Below, in pieces: positions 19,101 through 32,361 of a stretch of DNA of 37,530 nt (its first letter is position 1; each line of letters begins with the position of its first letter). The stretch spans positions 1-37,530 of the forward strand of contig JAHEJP010000008.1 in NCBI GenBank assembly GCA_024638855.1, read 5' to 3'. The notes under the pieces are model-generated. The model was given only the letters and a program-made list of their open reading frames with translations. It was not told the DNA's origin and did not search any database. This stretch comes from Chloroflexota bacterium (GTDB lineage Bacteria > Chloroflexota > Anaerolineae > Promineifilales > Promineifilaceae). The position numbers were made by a program, and so were the translations under genes.

Positions 19101-20225
19101 ATGAGTGAATTTCAACCCTTTGCCATGGAACGATGGATGTCGAAATTCGAACAAGGAGTCGAGTACAACTTGTCCGAAAGTGGCGTCCATCCTATCCAAC
19201 TTGGCGAATTACTTCAGGATGTTCCCGGCGCGCTGGAGCGCCTGGCAACCACAGAGCTGAATTACCCGCATGTCAACGGCAATCCGCAATTGCGCCAAAA
19301 CATCGCCAATCTTTATGATGGCGCGAACATAGAAAATATATTGGTAACCGTGGGCGCGGCCGAGGCCAATTACATCGCCACGCGAACGCTATTATCACCG
19401 GGCGATGAGATCATCGTCATGTTGCCCAACTACATGCAAATCTGGGGCATTGCCAAGAACCATGGCTACCGGACCAAAAGTTTTCATCTGTTGGCGGAGG
19501 AAGGATGGGCGGCAGACCTTGCCGAACTGGAAGGGAAAATAACGCCCCAGAGCAAGATGATAGCCGTTTGCAATCCCAATAATCCAACCGGTCGAATCTT
19601 GAGCGAGCTGGAAATGGATAGCATCGTGGCTCAAGCGGAAAAGGTCGGCGCCTGGATTCTAGCCGACGAAGTATATTCCGGGGCAGAACGGCTGACGGAC
19701 GAACAAACGCCTAGTTTCTTCGGCCGTTACGATAAGGTTATAACCACGGGCAGTATGAGCAAGGCTTATGGTATGCCGGGTTTACGCATCGGCTGGGTGG
19801 TGGGCCCGCCGGCAGTCGTCGACGATATCTGGGCTCGCCATGAGTATACAACCATCAGCGCCACTATGCTGTCAAATGAATTGGCCGCTATCGCCCTTTC
19901 GCCCGAAGTCCGCCCACGAATCTTAAGCAGGACCCGCCAGTATATTCGTCAAGGGTATCCTATCCTGAAAAGCTGGCTTGATGACCATCCCGACATGTTT
20001 AGATTGACGCCACCCGAAGCGGCGGCCGTAGCCTTTGTCGGCTACGATCTTGATGTCAATTCCAGCGAATTCACGGATCGTCTAAGACTGGAAAAAAGCA
20101 CCCTGATTGTACCCGGCGATCATTTTGGTTTGGACCATTTTCTGCGCATAAGTTTCGGTTTACCTCGGGATTACCTTCTTCCAGCATTGGATCGGATTCA
20201 CCAGCTTATCATCGAGTTGTCCTAA
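19101..20225 (+). CDS. PLP-dependent aminotransferase, class I/II (fold type I)
   Basis: 374 aa. The internal aldimine lysine is K221 in T-T-G-S-M-S-K-A-Y-G-M-P-G-L-R-I-G-W. Also visible are N161 in C-N-P-N-N-P-T-G, D189 and Y192 in I-L-A-D-E-V-Y-S-G, and R229, which binds the substrate carboxylate in this family. The N-terminus F-A-M-E-R-W-M-S-K-F-E...Y-N-L-S-E-S-G-V-H-P matches a subgroup related to capreomycidine-synthase-like aminotransferases rather than classical aspartate aminotransferase. TTTAGGAGG sits 6 to 7 bases before the ATG. First gene of a run (dehydratase, OCD-like, MerB-like, ADH) with short spacings or ATGA overlaps, which suggests one amino-compound pathway. Confidence 0.9.
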   Translation: MSEFQPFAMERWMSKFEQGVEYNLSESGVHPIQLGELLQDVPGALERLATTELNYPHVNGNPQLRQNIANLYDGANIENILVTVGAAEANYIATRTLLSPGDEIIVMLPNYMQIWGIAKNHGYRTKSFHLLAEEGWAADLAELEGKITPQSKMIAVCNPNNPTGRILSELEMDSIVAQAEKVGAWILADEVYSGAERLTDEQTPSFFGRYDKVITTGSMSKAYGMPGLRIGWVVGPPAVVDDIWARHEYTTISATMLSNELAAIALSPEVRPRILSRTRQYIRQGYPILKSWLDDHPDMFRLTPPEAAAVAFVGYDLDVNSSEFTDRLRLEKSTLIVPGDHFGLDHFLRISFGLPRDYLLPALDRIHQLIIELS

Positions 20226-20253
20226 GCAAGATCGTTCGAAAGAAGAGCATAAC

Positions 20254-21216
20254 ATGGACGTTGTCCAGGAAGTACTGCTTGCCGAGGAACGAATCAGGCC
20301 CCATATCCGCCTGACGTATCTGGAACCATCGCCTTTCTTCAGTGCAATTAGCGGCGCCAATGTCTATCTCAAATGTGAGAACTTGCAGCATACAGGTTCA
20401 TTCAAAGCCCGTGGCGCATTGAGTAAGTTGCTCTCACTGAGCGAGGCGGAGCGAGATCGCGGAGTTGTCACAGCTTCAACGGGTAATCATGGCGCTGCGG
20501 TAGCATTTGCCCTTAGTCGCCTAAAGGCCAACGGTACGGTCTATGTGCCCCACCAATCCGCTTCATCCAAGGTAGAGGCGATTAGGCGGCTGGGAGCGCG
20601 AGTAAAGTTCTTTGGACAAGATTCTGTAGAAGCGGAAGCTCATGCCCGGCAGGTTGCCACCGATCGAGGATTGACATATATCTCACCTTACAATGACCCT
20701 CAGATTATCGGCGGACAGGGCACAATTGGCCTGGAGCTCTCTGAACAACTGGATCCTGTTGACGCGGTATTTGTGGCCGTTGGCGGAGGCGGCTTGATTG
20801 CCGGTGTAGCCGGTTATTTGAAGTCCCTTGATCCAGGCGTACAGATCATTGGCTGCTCGCCAGAGAACTCGAAAGTGATGATGCAGTCAGTCCGAGCTGG
20901 AAAAATCTTGGACCTGCCATCACAGCCCACGTTATCGGATGGCACGGCCGGAGGGGTGGAGGCCGGATCGATAACCTTTGAATTATGCCGGGATTTGGTG
21001 GATGATTTTGTGGCCGTGAGCGAAGAAGAGATTCGGCAGGCGTTTCGCCAATTTTTGCCTGCTCAACATATGCTCATAGAAGGTTCGGCGGCTGTGCCTC
21101 TGGCTGCATTACTTAAACTTCCTGAACCGTATCAAGGTCGAAATGTGGTCGTTGTATTATGCGGGGCCAACATCGATTCAGGCACATTGGCGGCGATTGT
21201 CGGGAGTAATTCATGA
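20254..21216 (+). CDS. Threonine-dehydratase-like PLP enzyme (fold type II; EutB-like)
   Basis: 320 aa. PLP lysine K51 lies in L-K-C-E-N-L-Q-H-T-G-S-F-K-A-R-G-A, the serine/threonine dehydratase signature, and the phosphate loop V-A-V-G-G-G-G-L-I-A-G is present. It lacks the C-terminal ACT domain of biosynthetic IlvA, so it is a catabolic-type ammonia-lyase or one acting on a related hydroxy-amino acid. Followed with a 4-base overlap by an ornithine-cyclodeaminase-like gene. The same pairing occurs as EutB/EutC in hydroxyectoine use, but no ectoine hydrolase is seen here, so I do not assign that pathway. Confidence 0.9.
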   Translation: MDVVQEVLLAEERIRPHIRLTYLEPSPFFSAISGANVYLKCENLQHTGSFKARGALSKLLSLSEAERDRGVVTASTGNHGAAVAFALSRLKANGTVYVPHQSASSKVEAIRRLGARVKFFGQDSVEAEAHARQVATDRGLTYISPYNDPQIIGGQGTIGLELSEQLDPVDAVFVAVGGGGLIAGVAGYLKSLDPGVQIIGCSPENSKVMMQSVRAGKILDLPSQPTLSDGTAGGVEAGSITFELCRDLVDDFVAVSEEEIRQAFRQFLPAQHMLIEGSAAVPLAALLKLPEPYQGRNVVVVLCGANIDSGTLAAIVGSNS

Positions 21217-22172
21217 AAATTATCACCCTAGATGAAATTAAAGAAATATTGCCGGACCTTGATTTAATCCCGGCTATTGAAGCGGGCTTTGTGGCCTATT
21301 CGGCCGGCCAGGCGGTGGTACCCCCTGTGGGCGAACTGCTGCTGGAGGAAGGGGAAGTCCATATCAAATATGGCTATATAAGGCAAGATGACTATTATGT
21401 GATCAAGATCGCTTCAGGTTTTTACGATAACCCGAATTTTGGCTTGCCATCCAGCAATGGCCTCATGTTGTTGTTTAGCCAGAAAACAGGTCAATTGGTC
21501 AGTATCTTGCTGGATGAAGGATATCTGACCGATCTGCGTACGGCCGTCGCGGGTGCGATCGCCGCTAAATACCTGGCCCCTCAATCGGTGAAGTGTATCG
21601 GCATTGTGGGCAGCGGAATCCAAGCCCGCCAGCAGCTCATGATGCTGCGCCAGGTAGTAGACTGCCGGAAAGTTCTCGCTTGGAGCCTGGATAAGGATCA
21701 TCTTGAGCTATACCGAGATGACATGATCGCGCAGGGTTTCCAGGTCCAGATCGCTCCTGATACCGGCAGCATGATGGCTCGCTGTGATTTAATTGTAACT
21801 TGCACGCCGGCGGCAACACCACTTCTGGCAGCGGCCGACTTGCGCCCAGGTATTCATATCACGGCTGTTGGTTCTGACACGCCCCACAAACAGGAAGTGG
21901 AAGCGGCTATCCTGGGAGATGCAGACCTAATCGTGGCCGACAGCATTGCCCAATGCCTGGTGCGGGGAGAGATCTTTCAGGCTCTGCGGGCAAATCAAAT
22001 CGATCTGGAAGATATATCCGAACTGGGTCAAATCATCGCTGGCAATGTTCCAGGTCGCACTAGCGATCAACAAATCACGATCGCCGATTTAACCGGCGTG
22101 GCCGTTCAGGACATTGGCATCACCGTCGCCGTTTATGAGGCAGCAATGAAAAAGAGGCAATCAAAAATATGA
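21213..22172 (+). CDS. Ornithine cyclodeaminase / mu-crystallin family protein
   Basis: 319 aa NAD(P)-dependent enzyme. Family features are V-H-I-K-Y-G-Y and Y-V-I-K-I-A-S-G-F-Y-D-N in the substrate domain, L-L-D-E-G-Y-L-T-D-L-R-T-A-V-A-G-A, and the dinucleotide loop G-I-V-G-S-G-I-Q-A-R-Q-Q, then T-C-T-P-A-A-T-P-L-L and A-V-G-S-D-T-P-H-K-Q-E-V. Members deaminate ornithine, reduce cyclic imines or make N-substituted amino acids, so the substrate cannot be told from sequence alone. Start and stop both overlap neighbours by ATGA, so dehydratase, this enzyme and the MerB-like protein are translationally coupled. Confidence 0.9.
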   Translation: MKIITLDEIKEILPDLDLIPAIEAGFVAYSAGQAVVPPVGELLLEEGEVHIKYGYIRQDDYYVIKIASGFYDNPNFGLPSSNGLMLLFSQKTGQLVSILLDEGYLTDLRTAVAGAIAAKYLAPQSVKCIGIVGSGIQARQQLMMLRQVVDCRKVLAWSLDKDHLELYRDDMIAQGFQVQIAPDTGSMMARCDLIVTCTPAATPLLAAADLRPGIHITAVGSDTPHKQEVEAAILGDADLIVADSIAQCLVRGEIFQALRANQIDLEDISELGQIIAGNVPGRTSDQQITIADLTGVAVQDIGITVAVYEAAMKKRQSKI

Positions 22173-22921
22173 CTGATTCCATTTTATTGGGAAGAGGGAA
22201 AGAAATACATTCTATTCCAGAAACAGTGTGGCGGGGGCATCTGGAGCAGGCGCCAGAGCACAGCCGCAAGCGGTTAAATTTTATGACTGAAGATCATCAC
22301 CGGGTACGATATTTTGTTGTCAGGGAGTTGCCGCGTTATGGTCGGCCGATTGCCCCAGATCTGATCAGCCAGGAATTAGCCCTTGCCGAGAACATAGTTG
22401 CTGGCATCCTTGATGAGCTGGAGGAAAATCTTGTCTTCCTGGTGCGGAATAAGGAGGGTGAAGTCGCCTGGGCATTCCCGGTCACGACCGATGCCACAGC
22501 CCATGAAATAAGCTTTAGCAGCGGTGAACGGCTCTACGGCGCTTGAGCAGAGGACGCTATCGCGACGCCCTTCGTGCAAGGGCACCTACGCCCTGAAGAA
22601 CTGACTTTCGAGATAAGGTCTGTTTGTGGCCATTGCGGTGAATCGCTGCGTATCCGAATGGATAGTGACCTAAATTATGAGATCATGGAGCCAGAGGTAC
22701 TGCCCTTGATATTTTCGCCTGATGTTGATTGGGCTCAATTCACCGAACGCAACATCATCGATGCCTACTGACAAAACTCGCTTTTCTTCTGGTCAGAAGA
22801 ACATGCGCGAGAATACCGTGACTCCCGTGATCAAGTGGATGGTATTTACTTGACCCTGGAGCAAATAGTGTATATGACACCAATCTTGCAGGGCGCATTA
22901 TTTGGATTCCTCGGCAAATAA
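22169..22921 (+). CDS. MerB-like alkylmercury lyase homologue with two in-frame TGA codons (predicted double-selenocysteine protein)
   Basis: Read through TGA at 22544 and 22769, one frame from ATG 22169 to TAA 22919 gives 250 aa. Residues about 40-100 form a MerB-type winged helix (F-V-V-R-E-L-P-R-Y-G-R-P-I-A-P); then come W-A-F-P-V-T and S-S-G-E-R-L-Y-G-A. TGA codon 126 reads R-L-Y-G-A-U-A-E-D, aligned with E. coli MerB R-L-Y-A-W-C96-A-L-D99; D129 matches catalytic Asp99. TGA codon 201 reads Y-U-Q-N-S-L-F-F-W-S, aligned with F-C159-C-H-V-H-F-F-A-S. C153-x-x-C156 lies between. MerB protonolyses carbon-mercury bonds using these two Cys and Asp. Each TGA has a hairpin at SECIS distance. Homology continues unbroken across both TGAs, the downstream fragment has no ribosome site, and TGA is a normal stop in other genes here. 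The ATG overlaps the preceding stop (ATGA). The substrate could be organomercury or another organometal(loid). No merA, merR or merT and no sel genes lie in the window. Confidence 0.88.
22562..22591 (+). promoter_or_regulatory. Candidate bacterial SECIS element for Sec126
   Basis: GCCCTT (22567-22572) pairs perfectly with AAGGGC (22578-22583) around a CGTGC loop with G at its second position. GCG (22562-22564) can pair with CGC (22589-22591) across an internal loop. The loop begins 26 bases after the TGA at 22544-22546, within the range known for bacterial SECIS elements. An alternative hairpin (AGGGC with GCCCT at 22590-22594) competes, so this is the weaker of the two. Confidence 0.65.
22777..22811 (+). 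promoter_or_regulatory. Candidate bacterial SECIS element for Sec201
   Basis: TTCTTCT (22784-22790) and AGAAGAA (22795-22801) form a perfect 7-bp stem capped by GGTC (22791-22794). CTCGC (22777-22781) pairs with GCGAG (22807-22811) below an asymmetric internal loop. The apical loop starts 19 bases after the TGA at 22769-22771. Loop sequence and distance closely match the GGUC-capped SECIS of E. coli fdhF, which SelB recognises. It lies inside coding sequence, as expected in bacteria. Confidence 0.82.
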
Positions 22922-29130: not shown

Positions 29131-29691
29131 TTAATATATATTCTGGTAAGGAATCAACGAGCGATCTTCCAAGTATTCCAAAATCTCATTGGCACTTTCT
29201 AAAGGCGTTTGATGATCTGTTTTAATATGAATGTCAGGATCGACTGGGGATTCGTAAGGATCTGATATTCCTGTGAAATTCTCAATCTCGCCTGCGATAG
29301 CTTTTTTGTACAAACCTTTCACGTCGCGTTCGATCACATCCTCGAGTGATGCATCGACGAACACTTCGATAAAAGTAGTCGTTTCCAGACGGACTTTGTC
29401 ACGAACAGCCTGGTAGGGGGATATGAATGAGCAGATGCAGGCGACGCCGTTGCGGGAAAGCAACTTGGCTACAAATGTCACCCTTTCGATGTTCTTATCG
29501 CGATCTTCCTTGCTGAAACCAAGATCGCTGGTCAAGCCCTGGCGAACGGTGTCACCGTCAAGCCGTTCGACTTTCAAGCTTCGGCTCCTAAGGTCGCCCT
29601 CAATGATCTCGGCGATGGTGGTCTTACCGGATCCGGAAAGGCCTGTAAGCCACAGAACGAATCCTTTTTGTTCTAGTGATTTCTGGATCAT
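29131..29691 (-). CDS. cysC: Adenylylsulfate kinase
   Basis: 186 aa. It phosphorylates APS to PAPS, the activated sulfate donor. The P-loop is G-L-S-G-S-G-K-T-T (17-25), followed by R-L-D-G-D-T-V-R-Q-G-L, L-G-F-S-K-E-D-R-D-K-N-I, and F-I-S-P-Y-Q-A-V-R-D, all typical of CysC. It overlaps the preceding alkaline-phosphatase-superfamily gene by 4 bases (ATGA), with ATP sulfurylase upstream of that. Length is close to the usual 180-200 aa. Confidence 0.95.
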   Translation of the reverse strand: MIQKSLEQKGFVLWLTGLSGSGKTTIAEIIEGDLRSRSLKVERLDGDTVRQGLTSDLGFSKEDRDKNIERVTFVAKLLSRNGVACICSFISPYQAVRDKVRLETTTFIEVFVDASLEDVIERDVKGLYKKAIAGEIENFTGISDPYESPVDPDIHIKTDHQTPLESANEILEYLEDRSLIPYQNIY

Positions 29692-31121
29692 AATTCTATT
29701 CGTTTCCCTTGCATATCGGCCGGTATCGGCAAACCGAAGATATCCAAAACAGTGGGAGCGAAATCCATCAATTGTGTGTCCCGGAGTTCTTTACCCCCCA
29801 TATTTCGTTCAGGTGGCGTGTGAATATAAATGCCGTTGACTGCATGATTGGCATCGTCTGGCCCGGTGTCATTTTCAAATGTATAGATACTGCCATGGCC
29901 AAACGTGCCCACGGATCGCCAGCCCAAATTATCAAAATAGACGATCAGGTCAGGCGGAACGTTACGTACTTCCTGATAGATATCTTGCGGCTTGTATACT
30001 TTGGTATCAAGTACATTTCCATCTGGGCCAGGAATTGACTTGATATGGCTAGCTAACTTATCTCGGAAATTTTCGTACTCATCCGCTTTAATCACACCGT
30101 TTGGTTCTCGGCCGGCAACGTTGAGGAAAATCCGCCCATAATATCCCCCATCACCCCAGGCAGTGGTTTTTTCCCAATCCACTTCCACTTTTTCAAAGGA
30201 GGAAAGATGGCCGACGGGTGGATCCTCAAACAGAACCAGGTAGCCTTCTCGCCTCAACCATTCATTGATGCAGAGACCGCCGTCCATTTTTTTGACGCCA
30301 TGGTCGGAGATGACCATGATGTGGGTTTCCGGTGGTAATCTTTCCAGAAGTGTACCGATTTCCTGGTCTAAATAATTGTAATACTCCTTAATCGAGTTGA
30401 CATAAGGACTATCAGGATCATGTTTGGGATGGTTCGGATCGTGATGAGCCCAAAGACCATGGTGAATCCGGTCGACGCCCATTTCCACAAACATGAAAAA
30501 ATCCCATTCCTTCTCGTCCAGCAGATAACGCAAGACCTGAAAGCGTTTTCGAGTCATGTCATTGATTTGCTGCAAGAGAAATGATTTGTCATCGGTTCGG
30601 AATTGAGGCACGTCGACATCATACACTTCAGGTGCTAACAGTTGGTTGATTTCATCCTGAAGTGTTGGTGGGTGAGCCCACTGGATCTTGGGGTTGGTAG
30701 TGCTGGGTGTTAGAAAACTGGAAACGAGCAGGCCATTGATTGGTTTTACTGGATAAGTCTGGGGCACTCCGACGACGATAGATTGCTTACCTGCTTCGCC
30801 AAGGATATCCCAGATCCGTTTTTCTTTGACGGATAAACCGGTGGCGATATATCGATTATCATAACTATAATCCGACCGGTTTCGAAAGCCATAAAAGCCG
30901 AGCTTTCCAGGATCTTTGCTGCTGGTCATGCTGCTCCAAGCTGGGACCGTAATGGCCGGGGTTGAGCTATACATGACGCTATAGGCGCCGCCGTCTAATA
31001 ACGCCTTAAGATTTGGCAATTCATTTCGCCAGGCATCAAAGATGAGTTCTGGCGGTGCACAATCTAAGCCGATCACAAAGACCTTGGGATCTTTCTTCCG
31101 GCCGAAAATTTTCTTGAACAT
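29688..31121 (-). CDS. Alkaline-phosphatase-superfamily phosphodiesterase/phosphatase-like protein
   Basis: 477 aa. The type I phosphodiesterase/nucleotide pyrophosphatase pattern is clear: metal Asp in V-I-G-L-D-C-A-P-P, probable nucleophile T58 in T-P-A-I-T-V-P-A-W-S-S-M, D-R-I-H-H-G-L-W for a metal site, I-S-D-H-G-V-K, and a C-terminal H within V-G-T-F-G-H-G-S or D-D-A-N-H-A-V-N-G-I-Y. No signal peptide or membrane segment, so it acts in the cytoplasm, unlike many relatives. Its place between ATP sulfurylase and APS kinase, coupled to the latter, suggests work on a nucleotide or sulfonucleotide such as PAP, PAPS or APS, but this is inference. Confidence 0.85.
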   Translation of the reverse strand: MFKKIFGRKKDPKVFVIGLDCAPPELIFDAWRNELPNLKALLDGGAYSVMYSSTPAITVPAWSSMTSSKDPGKLGFYGFRNRSDYSYDNRYIATGLSVKEKRIWDILGEAGKQSIVVGVPQTYPVKPINGLLVSSFLTPSTTNPKIQWAHPPTLQDEINQLLAPEVYDVDVPQFRTDDKSFLLQQINDMTRKRFQVLRYLLDEKEWDFFMFVEMGVDRIHHGLWAHHDPNHPKHDPDSPYVNSIKEYYNYLDQEIGTLLERLPPETHIMVISDHGVKKMDGGLCINEWLRREGYLVLFEDPPVGHLSSFEKVEVDWEKTTAWGDGGYYGRIFLNVAGREPNGVIKADEYENFRDKLASHIKSIPGPDGNVLDTKVYKPQDIYQEVRNVPPDLIVYFDNLGWRSVGTFGHGSIYTFENDTGPDDANHAVNGIYIHTPPERNMGGKELRDTQLMDFAPTVLDIFGLPIPADMQGKRIEL

Positions 31122-31140
31122 GGTTCGTTACTCTTGTTTT

Positions 31141-32361
31141 CTAGCCGTCGCTTTTGTCAACCTCATTATTGTTCTTTATACCATCTAACAAAACCTTAGA
31201 CACTTCTGGCCGGGTGAATTCCGGCGGCAACATCTCACCTCGCTCGAGCATCTCGCGAACCTGGGTACCACTGAGATATATCCAATCTTCTCTACCGTGT
31301 GGACAGGTCTTTGAACTGACCACCATGCCGCATTTCCGGCAGAAGAAAGTGTAATCGAAGGGTAAGATTTCGATGCCTACTTCCTCACGGGTAAAGTCAT
31401 TGAAGATTTGTTGTGCATCATAAGTGCCGTAGTAATTGCCCACACCGGCGTGATCGCGGCCAACGATGAAATGGGTACAGCCATAATTTTTTCGCAGCAA
31501 GGCGTGAAAAATGGCTTCACGAGGGCCAGCATAGCGCATCGCCGCCGGGAAGACACCTAATAGTACGCTTTCGGCCGGATAGTAATCGCGCAGAATCGCT
31601 TCATAACTGGCGATGCGCACATCGGCCGGGATATCGTCCGCCTTGGTTTCTCCCACTAATGGGTGCAAAAAAAGGCCGTCGACGATCTCTAGCGCAGCTT
31701 TCTGAATATATTCGTGGGCCCGGTGAATCGGATTGCGGGTTTGGAAGCCGACTATTCGGCGCCAGCCGCGCCGGGCAAACATTCGCCTGGTTTGGGCCGG
31801 AGAGTGGCGAAGCTCGGGAAATTCGCTCTTGGCTGCGGCCGGCAGGTCGACGACCCATATGTCGCCACCTAGTAGAACGTCGCCTTGTTTATTCAGGCGG
31901 GCAACTCCTGGGTGGGCTTCGTCTTTTGTGCCGTAGACCAGTTCGGCTTCCTGCTCTTTATCATAAACGTATTTTTCGGCGATTTCCATGATTGCCAAGA
32001 CATGCCCATTTTCGCAAAGGGCCACTTCCTGGTCAGTTTCGATCCCGACCGCATCTTCACTGCTTATCGCAAGGGTAACCGGTATCGACCACAGCAGGTT
32101 GTTGCTCAGGCGCATCTCTTTGACGACCCGCTCGTAGTCAGTCTGTCCCATAAATCCGGAAAGCGGGCTCATAGCCCCCGTGGCGATTAGCTCCAAATCG
32201 GACAGATTCATCGGGCTTAGATTGATTTTTTTTAAGGTTTCGGCTCGCTCCTGGACCGCCTGGCGCATCTGGCCGCGCAGCATACGATTGACCAGCTGAC
32301 CGCCATGAGGTGGGCTAATATCCAGGAGAGCGATGGTGTTCGTTGTGGTTTCATTCTCCAT
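31141..32361 (-). CDS. sat: Sulfate adenylyltransferase (ATP sulfurylase)
   Basis: 406 aa homo-oligomeric form that joins ATP and sulfate to APS. Signature pieces: V-G-F-Q-T-R-N-P-I-H-R-A-H-E-Y (nucleotide-binding), L-H-P-L-V-G-E-T-K, M-R-Y-A-G-P-R-E-A-I-F-H, and I-V-G-R-D-H-A-G-V-G. A C-x-x-C...C-P-H cluster (F-F-C-R-K-C-G-M-V then T-C-P-H-G) may bind zinc as in some thermophile enzymes. First gene of the sat - phosphodiesterase - cysC group. On the minus strand a TATAAT-like box lies about 30 bases upstream of the ATG. Confidence 0.96.
   Translation of the reverse strand: MENETTTNTIALLDISPPHGGQLVNRMLRGQMRQAVQERAETLKKINLSPMNLSDLELIATGAMSPLSGFMGQTDYERVVKEMRLSNNLLWSIPVTLAISSEDAVGIETDQEVALCENGHVLAIMEIAEKYVYDKEQEAELVYGTKDEAHPGVARLNKQGDVLLGGDIWVVDLPAAAKSEFPELRHSPAQTRRMFARRGWRRIVGFQTRNPIHRAHEYIQKAALEIVDGLFLHPLVGETKADDIPADVRIASYEAILRDYYPAESVLLGVFPAAMRYAGPREAIFHALLRKNYGCTHFIVGRDHAGVGNYYGTYDAQQIFNDFTREEVGIEILPFDYTFFCRKCGMVVSSKTCPHGREDWIYLSGTQVREMLERGEMLPPEFTRPEVSKVLLDGIKNNNEVDKSDG

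Follow-up and report, generated by a model that had tools for sequence, protein, structure and literature searches.

We report here that a gene in the window (the whole stretch of 37,530 nucleotides that was analyzed) encodes a relative of the organomercurial lyase MerB in which both catalytic cysteines are almost certainly replaced by selenocysteine (Sec), with UGA specifying Sec at codon 126 and again at codon 201. The explanation that we favor as a whole, with a probability of about 0.7, is that the product is a double-Sec selenoprotein of the MerB fold that would cleave an organometal, most likely an organomercurial. Sec at both catalytic residues of one enzyme is very unusual. The gene, its codons of interest, its hairpins, and its overlapping neighbor are located as follows.

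21213-22172, forward strand: ornithine cyclodeaminase/mu-crystallin-like gene, overlapping the start of the selenoprotein gene by 4 bases (ATGA)
22169-22921, forward strand: gene for the double-Sec MerB-like protein, 250 amino acids, UGA as predicted Sec at codons 126 and 201, stop TAA
22544-22546, forward strand: first predicted Sec codon (U126), at the MerB C96 position by alignment to MerB structures; TGA in 82/84 homologues and TGC in 2/84
22553-22555, forward strand: D129 codon, aligned with the proton-relay residue D99 of MerB; Asp in 84/84 homologues
22567-22583, forward strand: bSECIS 1, GCCCUU-CGUGC-AAGGGC, its apical loop spanning +29 to +33 as counted from the U of the UGA
22769-22771, forward strand: second predicted Sec codon (U201), at the MerB C159 position by alignment; TGA in 84/84 homologues
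22784-22801, forward strand: bSECIS 2, UUCUUCU-GGUC-AGAAGAA, apical GGUC at +22 as counted from the U of the UGA

The frame (frame 1) starts with ATG and continues for 250 codons to its TAA, and on translation we found it broken only by the TGAs at 22544 and 22769, just as an earlier note on this DNA had read it. The note had also claimed that the C-terminus is lost in annotation, and the standard-code ORF listing indeed reports codons 1-125 of the gene only. A family profile aligned with the MerB sequences in the PDB places codon 126 at C96 (LYAWCALDT against LYAACAVDA), D129 at D99, and codon 201 at C159 (SFCCHVHFF against AFCRKSVFF), in agreement with the assignments made in the note, and it pairs C117 of MerB with C153. 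The MerB catalytic set C96/D99/C159 is therefore not literally present, in that D99 is kept while both cysteines are Sec, a residue with an equivalent but not identical chemical role.

When 84,980 species genomes were scanned, 94 relatives were confirmed, and 80 loci were kept, in metagenome-assembled genomes labeled Chloroflexota, Acidobacteriota, Desulfobacterota/Deltaproteobacteria, KSB1, Nitrospirae, Rokubacteria, Binatia, and Bacteroidota, among others. Within the class of the source organism (396 genomes), there were 15 further holders of the gene at 46-59% identity, and nearly all matches had exactly two in-frame TGAs. Conservation was then scored in a non-redundant set of 84 homologues from several phyla at 40-60% identity. 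Besides D129, the residues R93, W101, P104, H112, F135, V136, and F206-F207-W208-S209-E210-E211 are invariant in this set. At both TGA columns, the homologues hold Sec or Cys exclusively, and thus the non-Cys residues that the note had named as evidence against its reading were not encountered.

The relationship to MerB is seen both in family models and in predicted structure. The Pfam MerB model (PF03243) spans both TGAs, matching residues 106-234 with 48.4 bits against a cut-off of 27 (E=1.1e-12). With Sec modeled as Cys and the family alignment as input, AlphaFold2 returned a mean pLDDT of 93.8 and a pTM of 0.90, and a Foldseek search with the model gave MerB or MerB2 as the top 11 PDB chains, which are all of those with E<=0.001, with TM-scores normalized by target of up to 0.81 and an identity of 16-18%. 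The note had proposed predicting the fold as a check, and the predicted structure is a MerB fold whose significant PDB matches are to MerB/MerB2 only. The more specific NCBIfam models (June 2026) gave sub-threshold matches throughout, with SaoL at 28-46 bits vs 140 and MerB at no more than 57 bits vs 193. The window protein itself scored 31.8 bits against NF009710 (equivalog cut-off 193) and 30.1 against NF033555 (cut-off 200), the two MerB equivalog models, and 40.4 bits against the SaoL model NF040728 (equivalog cut-off 140).

Compared with MerB (PF03243; PDB 3F0O/1S6L; MerB2 5C17), the double-Sec protein shares the fold, the triad order C96, D99, C159 as U126, D129, U201, the C117 equivalent, and the FF that follows the second nucleophile. 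It differs from MerB in that both nucleophiles are Sec, in an identity of about 17%, in an N-terminal extension, in having FFWSEEHA where MerB has FFAS, and in mostly having no merA partner. In MerB, Hg is bound by either C96 or C159, the carbon that departs receives its proton by way of D99, and Hg(II) is taken off by a pair of external thiols (PMC4525700). Hg-C cleavage by selones is faster than by sulfur analogues (PMC11639659). Because all three MerB positions hold residues that are either Hg-competent or identical, protonolysis of an organometal is the best-fitting activity. The substrate would be an organometal R-M, with methylmercury or a different organomercurial as the most likely candidate. 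One selenolate would attack its metal and the other would complete the coordination, Asp129 would protonate the leaving carbon, and the metal would be passed on by exchange to low-molecular-weight thiols or selenols. Granted the two Sec residues, a carbon-metal lyase is highly probable by analogy with MerB, and, granted such a lyase, mercury is probably its main metal, so that cleavage of C-Hg bonds is likely. It is from this comparison that we infer the cleavage of the carbon-metal bond, the identity of the metal as mercury, and the route of metal release. The note had gone further in proposing a diselenide and, toward Hg or a different soft metal(loid), a much higher affinity; both may hold for a site with two selenolates.

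The arrangement of a MerB operon is not found in this genome, where the gene has no mer neighbors and MerA does not rise above the curated cut-off (best match 346 bits vs 454). MerA exceeded its cut-off in 1 of the 16 double-Sec genomes examined, and no clear association with hgcA was seen (over cut-off in 3/16 double-Sec genomes vs 1/24 in the background). Since there is no bona fide MerA, an Hg(II) product would fall outside the canonical handling route. Regulators lie directly upstream in a minority of the 80 loci (MerR-type in 6, MarR-type in 5), and a conserved Hg-binding cysteine set is absent from both types. The low identity to solved MerB structures also counts against our favored explanation.

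We weighed whether the protein might be a MerB-fold double-Sec carbon-metal(loid) or metal-handling selenoenzyme whose substrate is another soft metal, a metalloid, or a selenium species instead of mercury, much as for the function predicted for SaoL. The missing link to MerA or HgcA and the lack of a mer-type regulator point in this direction, as does the fact that the gene stands alone in many anaerobic lineages, and, in a 2026 review, the MerB-like organometallic lyase SaoL is entered with one Sec (PMC13188914). We nevertheless consider a non-mercury substrate unlikely, as the three MerB catalytic positions are all Hg-competent and the fold matches MerB only.

Selenium binds mercury very tightly. 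A protein with two selenolates could instead hold Hg(II) or organomercury almost irreversibly, acting as a noncatalytic metal buffer or sensor, in effect a sponge from whose bis-selenolate site Hg would leave slowly, and most of the genomes having no MerA partner would fit this. We think such a role improbable, given that a pure sponge has no need of the proton-relay Asp that is invariant in 84/84 homologues and that two Sec per molecule would make it a costly one.

The organometal-cleaving selenoprotein that we favor requires that UGA be read as Sec at both positions, which we infer to be the case in the cell. The protein would be made by the standard bacterial SelB/tRNA-Sec/bSECIS system, with one UGA and one SECIS for each Sec. 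The note had described a SECIS-like hairpin after each TGA, and this is borne out by folding minima, frozen synonymous codons, and conservation of base pairs. Averaged over the family, the deepest local folding z-scores lie directly after the TGAs (about -0.9 at codons 126-130 and -1.4 to -1.7 at 200-202), and elsewhere along the ORF nearly all values fall between -0.5 and +0.35, with one position at -0.67. In bSECIS 1, five of the six pairs are kept in at least 83 of the 84 homologues and the outermost pair in 74, while all seven pairs of bSECIS 2 are kept in 84/84. Codon choice is correspondingly frozen after U126, where P134 is CCC in 80/80 (31% gene-wide), F135 is TTC in 84/84 (66%), V136 is GTG in 81/84, Q137 is CAA in 75/81, and G138 is GGG in 79/83 (28%). 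After U201, F206 and F207 are each TTC in 84/84, S209 is TCA in 80/84, and E210 is GAA in 83/84.

The second hairpin can be followed beyond the double-Sec family. An apical GGUC lies exactly +22 nt from the second-position Sec codon, on a stem of 5 or more pairs, in all 113 MerB-like sequences that have Sec at this position, regardless of clade, and it was found at +22 in none of 13 Cys relatives. The pair that closes its loop varies among UA, CG, UG, and AU, which is compensatory covariation. GGUC is also found in the apical loop of the SECIS of E. coli fdhF. Rfam contains no model that matches.

The note had asked for selA, selB, selC, and selD in the same genome, and all four are present: selA at E=9e-137, selB at 355 bits (cut-off 242), tRNA-Sec at 72 bits (cut-off 47), and selD at 357 bits (cut-off 125; L018, G000:C560:12201-13136). 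An in-frame TGA inside selD suggests that the selenophosphate synthetase of this genome is probably itself a selenoprotein. SelA was found in 46 of the 49 other genomes that carry the double-TGA gene. Within the class, SelA is present in 15/16 double-Sec genomes vs 332/396 genomes overall, and because it is so common in the class, we take it as necessary support that does not discriminate.

These data also bear on whether UGA could encode Trp or some other residue under an alternative code, since the frame stays open under any reassignment of UGA. This reading is rejected as very improbable: homologous columns carry Cys and never Trp, a SECIS hairpin accompanies each UGA in a genome with complete Sec machinery, and the 84 homologues have no further in-frame TGA within core residues 9-245. 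That the gene is instead a pseudogene or sequencing artifact, with two chance nonsense changes in a MerB-like gene, has next to no probability, even though an ORF of 125 codons is all that standard gene calling recognizes, as both columns are TGA in 82 of the 84 homologues (the note had likewise called two random mutations at the catalytic Cys codons very unlikely), the remaining protein is conserved, synonymous sites within the hairpins are frozen, and sequencing error is untenable because the same TGAs are conserved in about 80 independent assemblies. From the conservation of this arrangement across many bacterial groups, we conclude that the double-Sec active site is real and that the gene is not broken.

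The relatives form a graded series with regard to the two catalytic positions. Among the MerB-like proteins of Anaerolineae, there are 12 Cys/Cys forms and a further all-Cys form in which C takes the place of D99, 26 Cys/Sec forms plus two reversions, with Cys/Sec being widespread in Anaerolineae, 83 Sec/Sec forms with Asp, and two Sec/Sec forms with Glu replacing Asp (L155 and L156). Of the homologues that the note had suggested looking for, Cys/Cys, Cys/Sec, and Sec/Sec were thus found, but Sec/Cys was not: no homologue has Sec at the C96 position unless it also has Sec at the C159 position. A FastTree phylogeny, which is approximate, was built with the two Sec columns left out; it unites all Sec forms in a single clade (support 0.992) and resolves the Asp-containing Sec/Sec family as one branch (0.961). 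L067 and L117, the two reversions from Sec to Cys, are nested, each with a Sec/Sec protein as its sister (0.99), and of the two hairpins L067 retains only the second. The topology therefore favors a stepwise gain, in which Sec would have arisen first at position 159 and later at position 96.

The sister group of the double-Sec family in the tree is the Anaerolineae Cys/Sec clade (L038, L040, L042, and most of L132-L165), which shares the second-position Sec (C159) and its GGUC SECIS at +22 and differs in keeping Cys where C96 of MerB stands (NCAWD motif). This clade is large, with the motif NCAWD...TUxxxLFRSEE and the GGUC SECIS at +22 in each member, and the two members that were scanned score below the NCBIfam cut-offs. 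An all-Cys relative nested in the clade (L129, G272:C3:371731-372099) has Cys at the D99 position as well. Its genome is absent among the SelA matches listed, which fits a Sec-to-Cys reversion following loss of the Sec machinery. The Glu-containing L155 and L156 (G253 and G175) form a second double-Sec type on its own long branch, with Glu for the proton-relay Asp (UGLE/UGME). A more divergent Sec/Sec MerB-like reading, L157 (G294:C71), has a GGUC hairpin after its first TGA too (CUGCUGGUCAGCAG), and its genome, which is incomplete, has no SelA among the matches listed. In one further genome in which SelA was not found, the double-Sec gene is split over two frames (L029/L062, G337:C353), either as a decaying gene or through an assembly error.

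Sec-containing relatives of MerB are already known in principle. According to PMC13188914, SaoL (NCBIfam NF040728) is the MerB-like organometallic lyase of the Sec-assisted organometallic (SAO) system of Haft and Gwadz 2023. SaoL is, like the protein described here, a MerB-related selenoprotein, and its profile matches weakly over the N-terminal two thirds; it differs in having, as listed, one Sec in a CU motif, whereas here two Sec occupy two catalytic positions. The same review covers 119 prokaryotic selenoprotein families, the vast majority of which have one Sec, as does SaoL, the MerB-like family that it lists (PMC13188914). A 2020 table includes an "organic mercuric lyase MerB2" among predicted selenoproteins (PMC7435645), where this Sec-containing MerB relative appears by name only, with no sequence and no number or position of Sec. 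A 2021 survey of MerB diversity stressed strict conservation of the catalytic cysteines and left selenium unmentioned (PMC8261052). A broad family with both catalytic cysteines replaced and two SECIS elements appears to be undescribed in the literature surveyed, with a mention possible in Haft and Gwadz 2023 or Haft and Tolstoy 2025.

More tentatively, and with slightly less than even confidence, we suggest that this is a widespread, anaerobe-associated family in which the two Sec act as a bis-selenolate metal trap that cuts carbon-metal bonds, reached stepwise from Cys/Cys through Cys/Sec to Sec/Sec, in holders mostly without MerA, and that its substrate and release route represent a branch of organometal metabolism that is new. 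Should methylmercury be cleaved by the protein, anaerobes of sediment and groundwater would have a capacity for demethylation that went unnoticed because the two UGAs reduce the gene to a fragment. The natural Cys/Cys, Cys/Sec, and Sec/Sec members of a single fold make the value of selenium in metal chemistry directly measurable, and an mRNA with two SECIS elements offers a system for studies of processive Sec insertion.

Comparison of gene neighborhoods across the 80 loci revealed no functional partner and no conserved neighbor, and no SAO operon neighbors were recognized in this comparison. No relatives were found in viral contigs, and a viral origin was rejected on these grounds; the only relatives on plasmids are distant ones (about 26% identity), most of which are annotated as merBA. 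In the window, the neighbors are amino-acid enzymes and an alcohol dehydrogenase. The ornithine-cyclodeaminase-like gene and the selenoprotein gene are probably co-translated here because of their 4-base overlap, but the overlap is seen in this genome only. The gene is not a conserved partner, and the context is not informative. The stretch upstream of the selenoprotein gene, at 19101-22172, holds closely spaced or overlapping PLP aminotransferase-like, Ser/Thr-dehydratase-like, and ornithine-cyclodeaminase-like genes, a run that resembles amino-acid or hydroxyectoine-type catabolic sets. Farther along the window, at 29131-32361 on the reverse strand, lie APS-kinase-like and ATP-sulfurylase-like ORFs (sulfate activation) with a phosphodiesterase-like ORF between them, as judged from their translations.
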